Below are positions 28,801 through 34,800 of a stretch of DNA of 64,000 nt, piece after piece. The DNA comes from Artemia franciscana (lineage: Eukaryota; Arthropoda; Branchiopoda; Anostraca; Artemiidae), in contig NC_088879.1 of NCBI RefSeq assembly GCF_032884065.1, forward strand, positions 17,924,489 to 17,988,488, written 5' to 3'. A model generated the notes under the pieces. It was not told the origin of the DNA, did no database searches, and saw nothing but the letters and a program-made list of their open reading frames with translations. The position numbers and the translations under genes are program-made. Every line of letters begins with the position of its first letter. Positions within the stretch are counted from its first letter, which is position 1.

Positions 28801-31800
28801 TTTACTTTTCTTTAAACAACTAATTTTGTGGAATAAAATAAAGTATCTGAAAGATACCGAAGAAACACTTCAGGTTATCTAGACAACCTAAATATATTAT
28901 TTGTGGGGGATGGATAATCTATATTTTTATGCATGTCAGAATTTGCCTTGCTTTAATTTAATACCTTCCTATAAATCTTCTTCGCCAGTAATTATGATGT
29001 CATTAATATTCCTAGGCATGTTTCTAACGTTCCTTACTATAGCACCATCTGCTACTTTAAAAATTATTTTCCTAAAATTATTCCATCGAACTTTTACATT
29101 GTAAATTTTTAGACTAGCTTAATATTCACATTTTACCGGAAAGTTTCTCTCCAGTTATTAATCTGGAACCTACCAACGTCATAACTTCATAAGAGCAACA
29201 TAATATGCATGCATGTATCGGGATTTTTTTTGCACACAAGTTTTGAGATAAATTTTAATTCTCAGTGGCAGTTTTGCATCAGTGCTAGTTATTCAAAAAT
29301 GTAATTTTTCTTGTCCAATATGGGTCACTGCAAACTTTCAAAAACGAGTTTTTGACAATGAGGATGTCAGTGGTGTATTTTTATTGTAATTGGACTTTAT
29401 ATTTGAGGGTCTGGGGTTTTTGTTTGAAAGTGTGAAAAAAGTCATTTTTCAGTTATTTCCAAAATAACTGTTGTATGTGAAATTTTTTTCACTAAACAAT
29501 TTATTTTCAAAATGATTTTATTTTGGAAATTTTGCTACTATGGGCTGTAGTTTGCTATTTACTAGGTTGCACATACAGCTAGTGCCGTGATATCACCGCA
29601 CATGAATAAATTTCGGCAGTCATAATTTGGGTTGCAAGTGAGTATAGTTCATAATATACTTTACACTTAAAAATTATAACGCAGTCTGATATGCACAGGA
29701 TGCTTTTGATAAACAAATATGTTCTTTTGATCAACATGAGCCCAGATTTATGAGTCAGTTATCCTTAGTAAGATCGACCCTAAGAGGATATTGTTATCAC
29801 TTCGGGCATCAATTAGGAAATTCAATAACTTCTAATTAAAGCTGGTAACTACTACTAAAGCTTTTAATGTGTTCATTCCAGAATACAATTTACACTGAGA
29901 TAAGTCTTTTGTTTCGTGCATTCCTTTTCTTACCATTTATTTGATTGATGAACAGATTTTTAGGTCTGATCTTACGCTAAGTAGAACATCAGTAGCTACT
30001 ATTCTTGAATTGCGAGTGAAATTTTTATGAGAGGTTAGAAGTTGTGCTGTGCAGTAGATTTTACGTCAGACAAACCTATTTTACCGATTCTTTGTCACCT
30101 TAAACTGCGTTGAATAAGTTTGAGAGTTCTGTGTGCAACGATTTATGTCGATAAGTAATTCGAATGTCCGGAACCTTGGTTTTGGCTATGTCATTTCCTT
30201 TGGTGCCCTCTTCTTTATAATTTAGACCAAGCCAGCTGGTTTTAACAGAATTGGGAAAGCCACTAAGTAAGACAGAATTTTTCGCAAGCTCTACTTGATC
30301 AGTGGCTGTAAGTGTCCACACTTGGGTTGCAACTGCATACTCTTCCATCAGGGGATCACTTGTAAAGTGGAACTGGAGAGGACTGTTAGTACCGAGGCTT
30401 GTTACCAAACCTCTGGTAAAGAAATCATAAAAGGGATGTTTGGAATATCTCAAAAATATGGAATTATCTGACATAGGTGACATTGTAATTCCAACTTGGG
30501 AAAGGTAGTATAAATACTGAAGAACAGGTACTTTTTGTAGCATTAATCCTTGGGATATGCTTTGAGCAAGAAGAAAACTTGCAACTAATGGTCGGATTGG
30601 CCCAGTTGCTCCACAGTGTGGACGTAAAGTAAATGTGTTTAGTCCGCGCTCTTTTCTAAACTGATTAAGGACGCAAACATTCGTAAATATATAATATAAA
30701 TAATACCAATGTGGGGGGTTCTCTTTGACAATCCAGTTTTGTGGATATTGCATTGTTGAAGTTAGAACATTTGTCTCCGTATTTGATTCATCCCCTACTA
30801 TGTCGAACCCAGTTACATGTTGTAAGAAAGAATACAGCTCAGGATTAGTCTGTGGATTGTTAGTAACCTCAAATAAAGGCTTGAAAATATTACCTAGAAC
30901 ATCTCCAAAGCTTTCAACAACGCCATCAGACTTCAAACTATCGTAAACTCTTGGTATTTGAATAAGCCATACAACTTTGTCAGAATAAACATCCCACTTA
31001 ACTGTCCATTTAGCCAGTTTGCTCCATTCGTCATTCGATCTGCCATGAATTGATATCCTTAGCTCTGCCTGTTGATACCTTGATTCTTTTAAGTTGGACA
31101 TAAAGTCTTTAACTATTTTAGCAAGATATTCACCTTCCAAATAATTATCAATTTTTAGAAATAATTCTCTGAGGCTACTCTTTCCAATTGGACGTCGTTT
31201 ATTTATGTACTTGTCGAAACGTTGAAAAGCGCTTCGACCACAGTGTACATCTAATATATCAACAGTCAGATCATCTGAAGTTAAATTCAAATCATGAAAA
31301 ACCTGTTTCAGTGTCTTTACATTACCATTTTTATCAAGTTGAACTGGTCGATCACCTTCTGAGTTTAGATGTTTCTTAATAAAGTGTAGTAAACGGGTTT
31401 GGTTCATACAAGTACTTGCGTGAAGATCGTTGTCGACTTTTCGTACATTGTAGAAATCTCTGCGGGGTACAGATTTTAGCTGTGATGCCTCTAATTGTTG
31501 GTTCAGTATCTCGTGGACCTGAAACTGATGCTGTAGTAGCTTGAGACACCGAACGGTAAATGTCTTTAATGGTCCATTTGTAATTGCGCTATGTAGCAGT
31601 TGCATATCTCTGATGAACGTATCTATATTTGTGAATTTAAATTCAATTGGTGTATTTTTGTCTATATCTTGCTGACTTTCATAAATCTGAAAAACACCAT
31701 TATTACATCCTATATAGTATTTTCTTGTGATCTCAGTTTTCAGTTGACACGAGGTCTCTTCATTTGACTTATTTGAGTCCTGAAATGATTTTTGATGTGA

Positions 31801-34800
31801 GCTTTTGTTAGTAGACTGTTTGGCCGTGACAACAGTCTTTTGATTATTATAATAATCCAAGAATCTGTTAGTTAATACTGGGAATGATTGTTGAGAAACA
31901 TCCATATATTTACGTCGCAAATTCAAGATTTGCACTAAAAGATCCAAAGGAGGTTTCTCATCGTTTGTAACAAGCGGTAGGTTGGGACTAATTTCGACTC
32001 GTAAAAAATTTAGTTCGTCTTTTGGTTCTATACTTTTTTGCTCCAGCCCAGAAACATGACTGTCAGCCTCTATTCTTTTCCTGATTTCTGCCTCAAAAGC
32101 CTTGCCTTGTTCTATGGGCAGTCGCAGACTATCAAGCGAATGAGATACATCATCACTATTCTTGTCGGACTCGTCACCGGATGACATTTCATCTTGGCGC
32201 TCTCCCAGCCCGGTTGTATCTACTTTTCTCTCCTGGTTGACATCTCCATTAGAAGCTTTGCTCTCTTCTACCGGTTCTTGTAAAATATCATATGGCAGAT
32301 ACATTTCATCATCACTTGCTTCAAGCTCGTCGTCTAGTGCTGATTCGTCCGAGGACTGATCTTTGGGTTTAAATTCTCTGGCTTCAATAACCTCTTGTTG
32401 ACCATTCATTTAAGAGTCTGTTGTTCAAGAAAATGTCACAAGCAGGCTGGAAGTGACCAAGCTCTTATACTTGACCGGTAGAACCATTTAAATTAATTGG
32501 GGATGGTTTTTAACTCCCTCAGAGTTTTTGCTTTTTCCATTTCTGTAAGCGTAGAATTTTTTTGTTTTTGTTAAATTTTTGATAATATGACATTTCTTCA
32601 TTATTTTCTGCCGTTTCTAAAATTTAATTTATTGACGTTTACTCAAAAACTTAGCCGTGACAACTAGATCACTTTAGGGCTGCTACTTTTCTCCTCTTTT
32701 CTTCTTTTTTTCCTTGAGTATTTATTTCTTCCTTTTCTTCCTCATTAAAAAATCACATTTTTATATCTCTTCTTTCATTACATAAAATTATTGCATAAAT
32801 TACTATTTTGTCTCTAATCAAAAACCGGTGATACTACATGCACAGATGCAGAGAGAAACTTCGTAGTTAAAAGTTGTGTCTATTGGTTAGGCCAGCAAAC
32901 AGTATCGACGAAAATATCTAAAAAAACATCTTGAAGTTAGCTGTGTTTCGCATGCTCTAGTTTTGTCAAAAATTGAATTTATTTTTTAATTATCCTTTGT
33001 TATAGGAGGCACAAGGTGTGACGATTTGCTATAACACGAGCCTACTGCCAAGATTTTACAATCATTAGTTTGGTACGATTACCCCATGTAAAAAAAAAGA
33101 TAAAAAGAATAGGGATGCATCAATGCTTCTTTGGCGAAATGTGATTTTCTTTGTTACTCAACATGGAGGAGGATTGTATTTCTACTATACGGGTTTTTTG
33201 GGAATAGTGGTTCCAAGGGTATAGCAGTTTTCATTTCGATGCAACACCAGTTTTGAGGTGTTTCCGGCTACTTTCCGAAATACCTACATTTTGTTTTTTC
33301 AATAAACTTTTAACCGTTAACATAAACAGATCAGCTTCAAACGACCATTCTTCTTCACTTGACAGTTCTTTGAAAACAGGTTTTTAAACTTCAGGTTAAT
33401 GTATGCTAGAGTGCGTTCTTTACTAGGTTGCATATGACGTCGAACAATTATATAGAATCATGTATTGAGGTTTCAGCCGTCTTTGCATCTCTTTGCTGCC
33501 TCATGGTCTGTGCCAATTTTCTTTGTAGTAGGACAATAGCTCCACATATTGAACTCGATGAGGTTGCGTCATGGTTCAACTCTCCTACGCATACAGACCG
33601 TTCGGGACTGCTTCAATGGTTTACATTTTATTTTTAACAGCTGTAGTTTAACCAAAGTATAAATTAATATTCTGAGTATAAGCAATAATACCAGACGGGA
33701 CGGGACAACATCCTCTGAAGAGGTTCTTCAAATCGTCAGAGGCTCTTCAAGAGGTTCTACAAATTACGATTTGTAATATTTAAAAGAGGTACAATTTGTA
33801 GAATCATTCATAAAATTATGTTCTCCAGAGTCGTGTATTATTTAAACGCACAGTCTTGAAGCTAGATATTCTAAATGGTGTTTTAGCTTCACACGAACTG
33901 GGAATGTATCTGAAGTACTTGCATTGATCTTCCAGTTCAGGAAGGCAGTCCCTGACCCTCTCCCCATCAGGTGTAGCCATGGTGTTTATTTTAAGACTCG
34001 CTATTGCAAGCAAGGGTCAAAGCGCTTCAATTGATTTTTTATAATTTGAGGTTTGCTTGTGTTCAGTCTAAATGAATTTTTTATCAGTATTTTACTTATT
34101 ATATCAGTATTGTAAAAGCATGTTCGTCAGTATTTTATATTTTACATGTAATTGCCTATTTTTCCTAGCTATGTTCCCTATTAGATAAAATCCTGCATAA
34201 GTCTCTGGTGGGATATATAGATTTCGTATTTATGCCAATCCGTTTCCAATTAGGGTTAGGAGACATGAGAACATATGTATGCTTAATAATATATAATATT
34301 TAATATGTATATAATTTATTTATTTAATATGTATTTAATGTGTATATTAGTTTATAATATTATAAGTTTTGGTGAACAACTTGATTTGGTTATCCAGTCT
34401 CGAAGAGTTTAAGCAATAGTTTTACTTGAAAAAAAGAGAGAAAGTTCAATATCACTTCGGAATTGTCCAAAGAATCAGGAAAATTTGCTCGATTCTCAAT
34501 TTATTTTATTCATCTAAAAACCTCGGTTATCAAAATTTTTGATTTCGATTCATCGTCCTATCAATAATGTACATACAAATTTTTAATTTGGCTCTGGTAA
34601 GACAGAAGTCAAATGTCTTCAAATTTTACTTTTAAAAATAGCCTCCCCGCGTGCGCGCGTATTATGTTAATTTTTAGTACGTTTTAGTTATAGCTGCCCT
34701 TTTTCTAATGAAGTGCCATAGCGAAAAGTTTTTGTTAACTATCGTTAATTCTTCACATAGTATATCTGATCCTATTAGCTGTTCGTCCTAATTGTAAAGT

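Follow-up and report, generated by a model that had tools for sequence, protein, structure and literature searches.

What use could an animal have for an AMP deaminase gene whose active site has been taken apart, and how could the frame of such a gene have stayed open? This question is raised by a 64,000-nucleotide stretch of Artemia franciscana DNA (contig NC_088879.1, positions 17,924,489 to 17,988,488; hereafter the window), which is part of scaffold C17 of the 1.27-Gb genome. On its minus strand, at 30100..32409 and antisense inside an intron of the gene for COP9 signalosome subunit 2 (CSN2), lies an intronless AMP deaminase-like frame that runs uninterrupted for 769 codons; the longest of the other ATG-started frames listed for the window has 199 aa. 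An earlier note, made from the letters of the window, had read this frame as an AMP deaminase, and the family profiles agree. Indeed, PF19326 (AMP_deaminase, Pfam) matches residues 147-765 with 764 bits against a cut-off of 27, and TIGR01429 (NCBIfam) clears its cut-off of 726.3 with 755.5 bits. PF00962 (A_deaminase) reaches 19.4 bits, below its cut-off of 27, while it gives 51.3 bits for a sister copy on scaffold C107, 47.2 bits for the parental gene of the same genome and 30.1 bits for Limulus. The note had started the alignment at about residue 165 and carried it to the C-terminus; the match to AMP deaminase stands and the start does not, BLASTP against the parent showing homology from residue 74 on. 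In the block described as near-perfect, [18 protein letters not shown], 16 of the 18 residues are those of the parent. The window protein is present in the protein database as one prediction, which is a gene call and not a record of expression. We hold it very probable, from its sequence, that this frame encodes a constrained pseudoenzyme, in which the catalytic residues have been lost and the fold has remained under selection.

The active site was compared with the family in an alignment of 233 rows, made of 232 listed database proteins and the spliced parent. All five replacements that had been noticed in the window protein were found again. The first His of the HxH motif, a zinc ligand, is Asp at codon 328 (31426..31428), His330 being kept; the catalytic Glu of HCGE is Ala at codon 601 (30607..30609), with His598 kept; the catalytic His of SHG is Gln at codon 620 (30550..30552); and the zinc/catalytic Asp-Asp pair of STDDP is Asn-Ser at codons 675-676 (30382..30387), all on the minus strand. 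Opposite D328, A601, Q620, N675 and S676 the family has His in 233/233, Glu in 232/233, His in 232/233, Asp in 232/233 and Asp in 232/233 rows, respectively, and at 601, 620, 675 and 676 the only deviating row is that of P0002, a Leptidea gene model holding two copies. The catalytic Glu, His and second Asp are thus all gone (A601, Q620, S676). The damage extends beyond the five residues to which the earlier note had confined it: F401Y, N402I and Y405R lie in the AMP-binding loop, and T327N and N406R are changed as well. The loop that contacts the ribose and phosphate of AMP (codons 400-405, 31195..31212, minus strand) reads KYINKR in place of KFNAKY, with 3 of its 4 invariant positions altered. 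The number of zinc ligands lost depends on the set that is used. With positions 328, 330, 598 and 675, the ligands in structure 2A3L, two of four are lost (328 and 675). With those of a figure legend in PMC3042610, mapped to 328, 330, 620 and 676, three of four are lost. That paper models AMP deaminase on structure 2A3L and is, together with general knowledge of the family, the source of the zinc and AMP contacts; their mapping onto the window protein was made in this analysis.

We then asked whether these losses are concentrated in the pocket. Positions were called invariant when conserved at a frequency of at least 0.995 in 230 listed relatives, Artemia sequences excluded, and kept in the parent. 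Thirteen active-site positions were named, of which 400 and 403 were dropped because they are not invariant in the family. The window copy has lost 8 of the remaining 11, against 19 of 128 other invariant positions (descriptive p = 8.6e-5), while the C107 copy has lost 0 of 11 and 5 of 128. Restricting the comparison to the zinc/catalytic residues at the 0.99 level gave 5 of 7 lost in the window copy against 24 of 147 others (descriptive p = 0.0028); all seven are kept in both the parent and the C107 copy. These data support the view that the active site of the window copy has been dismantled. They also reveal an annotation hazard, because the window protein clears the curated equivalog cut-off of TIGR01429, and so would be named AMP deaminase, while it lacks the active site.

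The earlier note had proposed an intronless retrogene and suggested looking for its intron-bearing source. A search of the genome located this gene on scaffold C7, together with two intronless copies, those of the window and of C107; scaffolds C656 and C12 gave short matches to a single exon. Spliced by hand, the parent comprises 12 exons across the aligned domain, separated by 11 introns with GT and AG ends; the model starts at its first aligned exon. Its 634 residues are 634/634 identical, where aligned, to database protein P0243 (AMP deaminase 2-like, isoform X3). P0243 holds 13 extra residues between the first two hand-spliced exons, which may mark one missed small exon, and we therefore count at least 11 introns. 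The window copy aligns continuously with the parent and has none of them, and it lies on a different scaffold. It shares the domain of P0243 at 54% identity (374/691 aligned positions) and differs from it in its introns and in the full set of zinc/catalytic residues that P0243 retains. A poly(A) remnant was not recognised, and no clear flanking duplication was seen among the short repeats found, a loss to be expected at such divergence. The intron pattern nevertheless supports a retrocopy of an AMPD2-type mRNA, in keeping with what had been proposed. Scaffold C7 also carries a second, partial copy of the parental gene (C7:48159663-48208715 versus 48306064-48369966). There, 10 of the 12 exons were found, 96-100% identical, with intron stretches about 82-98% identical and 100 N in the fetched stretch; the last two of the twelve exons were not found. 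This copy would be either a tandem duplicate or an unmerged haplotype.

The C107 copy (P0242, AMP deaminase 2-like, C107:390522-392771) is intronless like the window copy and differs from it in having lost none of the 11 active-site positions. Its catalytic residues are intact, its ratio of non-synonymous to synonymous substitution rates (dN/dS, omega) is about 0.16, and two of its three effector-phosphate residues are Gln; it possibly represents a working enzyme freed from phosphate control. Its loop Lys at position 400 is Ile, a position at which 222 of 230 relatives keep Lys. It is identical to the parent at 483/712 aligned positions and to the window copy at 329/666. In a tree of 33 protein rows the three proteins of Artemia group together (support 100/99); within this clade C107 pairs with the parent (98/97) and the window copy falls outside, on an end branch of 2.18 versus 0.15 for the parent. 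A 16-row tree gave the same topology, and a clade of the two intronless copies was disfavoured by the approximately unbiased (AU) test, p = 0.027, the test having been chosen after the tree was seen. The grouping of C107 with the parent and the AU test thus favour two separate retropositions, of which that of the window copy would be the older, although its long branch calls for caution.

Is the frame kept open by selection? In a three-branch codon model, omega was 0.087 for the window branch, to which a short piece of the parental lineage preceding the C107 split also belongs, 0.156 for the C107 branch and 0.053 for the parent. A value of omega = 1 was rejected for the window branch, with twice the log-likelihood difference (2dlnL) at 123.9, and for the C107 branch (12.2), so that the dN/dS comparison proposed in the earlier note came out on the side of selection. 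Branch-specific omegas were unsupported over one omega for the three branches (2dlnL 3.1, two extra parameters); because a single value fits nearly as well, there is no ground for claiming that selection is more relaxed on the window copy than on its sister. Between the window copy and the parent, 193, 115 and 338 of 600 codons differ at positions 1, 2 and 3, with 85 of 132 four-fold sites differing. Outside the pocket, 122 of 143 invariant positions retain the residue of the parent, compared with 38 of 104 variable positions (p = 2e-15), so that retention follows conservation in the family. Neutral decay was simulated from the present sequence, without insertions or deletions. At 0.05 substitutions per site the frame was still open in 5 of 2000 runs, with a mean of 1.2 of 11 active-site residues changed; at 0.2 per site no frame of 400 was open, and eight or more pocket changes occurred in 8 of 400 runs, their first appearance among the distances tried. 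Simulated frames thus close long before the pocket decays, which makes it most likely that the pocket was lost while the rest was still kept. The low omega, the simulation and the bias of the losses towards the pocket support long-term purifying selection on the fold, as had been suggested when the frame was first described as selected without catalysis.

Several points count on the other side. Synonymous divergence on the window branch is saturated (dS about 3.2), so that its omega is rough and a branch average, the rejection of omega = 1 being nonetheless not a close one. The active-site set was assembled after the finding had already named five of its members, and for this reason the p-values attached to it are descriptive. 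F401Y, which counts among the eight changes, is a conservative replacement. Lastly, losses at invariant positions outside the pocket are more numerous than in the sister copy (21/143 in the window copy versus 7/143 in C107, at the 0.99 level), and the fold of the window protein has therefore drifted too.

These last losses, together with the long branch of the window copy, would suit a pseudoenzyme that has left AMP deaminase altogether to act as a binding or scaffold protein. Such a protein could have recruited its N-terminus for a new partner: residues 1-100 (32110..32409, minus strand) hold 30 Asp and Glu against 9 Lys and Arg, while the first 100 residues of P0243 are less acidic (16 against 10). 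We consider a job of this kind somewhat unlikely, as constraint extends over the whole deaminase domain: when the alignment from residue 300 onwards is cut into blocks of at most 50 aligned positions, each block is 53-74% identical to the parent, which is what would be expected if the old assembly had been kept. The same constraint could alternatively belong to a new enzyme, whose altered pocket binds another metal or substrate and performs a different chemistry; to judge from the residues present, Asp328, His330, His598 and Asn675 could in principle still hold a metal. New enzymes of the deaminase superfamily usually keep the metal core. In the window protein none of Glu601, His620 and Asp676 remains, and the loop that binds phosphate is altered, which makes a new activity very improbable.

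Constraint read from a sequence is a record of the past, and the window copy might also be a once-useful retrogene that died recently and has not yet gathered stops. This is improbable for two reasons. A period of neutral drift brief enough for all 769 codons to remain open would change about 1 of the 11 active-site residues and not 8, and it would hit the other invariant positions at an equal rate, whereas the observed rates are unequal. That the altered codons are an artefact of assembly or base calling is extremely improbable. The copy was indeed read from one assembly, but errors would be expected to break the frame rather than to swap active-site codons within a coherent 2.3-kb frame, and the surrounding CSN2 exons match in order. 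In addition, PMC11492255, which describes this assembly and names two other A. franciscana assemblies, gives a quality value (QV) of 47.62.

If the fold was retained without catalysis, a role within the parental enzyme becomes attractive. AMP deaminase is a tetramer under allosteric control. Our best explanation overall, to which we give a little less than an even chance, is that the window copy is a constrained pseudoenzyme retrogene, perhaps encoding a regulatory subunit of AMP deaminase; the regulatory mechanism itself is proposed slightly more tentatively still, and the pseudoenzyme core, as said above, much more firmly. The explanation starts from what the sequence shows, a retrocopy whose frame is intact and whose active site was lost against strong constraint elsewhere. 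An Artemia AMPD2-type mRNA would have been reverse-transcribed and inserted antisense into the CSN2 intron. The copy would have become a gene of its own, losing zinc binding, catalysis and AMP binding and being kept as a folded protein. It would be transcribed, its product would still assemble with AMP deaminase subunits and, its effector site being kept, this subunit would tune or hold down their activity. The window protein would then probably be a non-catalytic partner or regulator, and its acidic N-terminus could serve docking or phosphorylation. The earlier note had also considered a nucleotide sensor; AMP binding by such a sensor in the original pocket is disfavoured, since KFNAKY has become KYINKR alongside the changes of the zinc site. 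An effector might instead be sensed through the allosteric phosphate site. Three basic residues are named for this site in PMC3042610, and a constant offset maps them to positions 317, 323 and 444 of the window protein. The parent has R, R and K at these positions, and its residue is found in 230, 229 and 228 of 230 relatives; the window copy has R, R and R (K444R) and the C107 copy R, Q and Q. The two copies may thus be reciprocal, the dead one keeping the charges of the effector site and the catalytically intact one having changed two of them. Three positions are few, and we treat this pattern as a lead.

Comparable proteins were sought in databases and in the literature. Two protein searches were made, of which the first, with the window sequence, gave the best 120 of 1397 matching proteins and the second, for AMP deaminase, the best 120 of 3801. 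Among the best 120 of 1397 matches to the window protein, none exceeded 54% identity besides the window protein itself, and the known parent was missed as well. The lack of a close match is weak evidence, because the same search missed both the parent and C107. With a guessed word spacing, these two share 2 of 100 evenly spaced five-residue words with the window protein, and every listed match at least 3. A high-identity orthologue would be expected to share many more, so that its absence among the matches listed is mildly informative. Searches of the open-licence literature, judged by titles and abstract openings, listed no animal AMP deaminase pseudoenzyme. The EukProt protein P0244 has two AMP deaminase domains, the second of which (residues 516-1130) lacks all seven zinc/catalytic residues. 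In contrast to the window copy, this dead domain follows a complete one within a single fused protein, and it is far more diverged (201/587 identical to the Artemia parent); P0244 comes from a transcript assembly and may be a chimera. The yeast proteins YJL070C and YBR284W are said in SGD to be AMP deaminase-like without key catalytic residues, which look-ups did not confirm; by this description, these fungal proteins would resemble the window copy in being dead AMP deaminase paralogues connected with purine balance. For the ice worm AMP deaminase, PMC3042610 describes a replacement close to the AMP pocket and argues that it reduces activity and maintains high adenylate levels. Unlike the window copy, that enzyme carries a single such substitution, with zinc and AMP residues generally conserved.

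The host gene CSN2 was delimited on the plus strand by tblastn, with a CSN2 sequence as query. Seven exons match in order over 7781-41719, with the ATG at 7781 and a TGA at 41720-41722 (gene 7781..41722). The intron that holds the retrocopy separates matched exons 4 and 5; it is 8,657 nt long (26168..34824, plus strand), begins with GTAAGT and ends with TTTTAG. When these two exons are joined, the CSN2 frame is open. An intron of a widely used gene may have been a favourable spot for a retrocopy to gain expression. A CSN2-like frame at 20628-21164 was considered as another retrocopy and rejected: its only genome match is itself and six further plus-strand exons lie in order, showing that it is part of the host gene. 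An AATAAA after the stop of the window copy (29936-29941, minus strand) was likewise rejected as polyadenylation evidence, the window containing 186 such matches versus 160 expected. Other features of the window were also recorded. An endonuclease-reverse transcriptase-like fragment lies between the first two matched CSN2 exons (8606-8971, plus strand; PF14529 below cut-off). A leucine-rich-repeat frame at 59127-59609 (plus strand; PF12799, 48 bits) is probably an exon of another gene. At 62613-63998 (minus strand), broken overlapping frames resemble a PIF1-type helicase, with PF05970 and PF21530 in the middle one, and are Helitron-like. A 15.8-kb scaffold of the assembly bears a COX1 with 100% identity to COX1_ARTSF, an Artemia entry. 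Across the genome, COX1 gave 75 scored matches, at least 10 being close to full length and several lying on chromosome-size scaffolds, which would reflect either much mitochondrial DNA in nuclear scaffolds or assembly mix-ins.

What could a restrained AMP deaminase mean for Artemia? In PMC6586685, Artemia cysts are described as holding a massive store of diguanosine tetraphosphate (Gp4G), as apparently unable to synthesise purines de novo and as suffering a near-total loss of ATP in anoxia, and Gp4G in Artemia also appears in PMC7705103. PMC3774621 reports that AMPD3-null mice undergo deeper 5'-AMP-induced hypometabolism, and PMC4391924 that ground squirrels have high hepatic AMPD2 activity in summer and active AMPK in hibernation. 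Because deamination of AMP drains a pool that they cannot rebuild, restraining AMP deaminase would suit Artemia embryos. This purine setting fits a regulatory subunit without proving it. A more specific version, to which we give little credence, is a dormancy switch, in which the dead subunit would join the living enzyme and throttle it when ATP collapses during dormancy or anoxia of the cyst, AMP thereby being saved for the restart. The two intronless copies would then have split the work of their parent, C107 carrying catalysis without the effector site and the window copy the effector site without catalysis. Pseudoenzymes are a known kind of protein; in this genome a dead copy coexists with a catalytically intact retrocopy and with their parent, and the animal is open to experiment, known for extreme dormancy and unusual in its purine economy, with Gp4G stores and a collapse of ATP in anoxic cysts.

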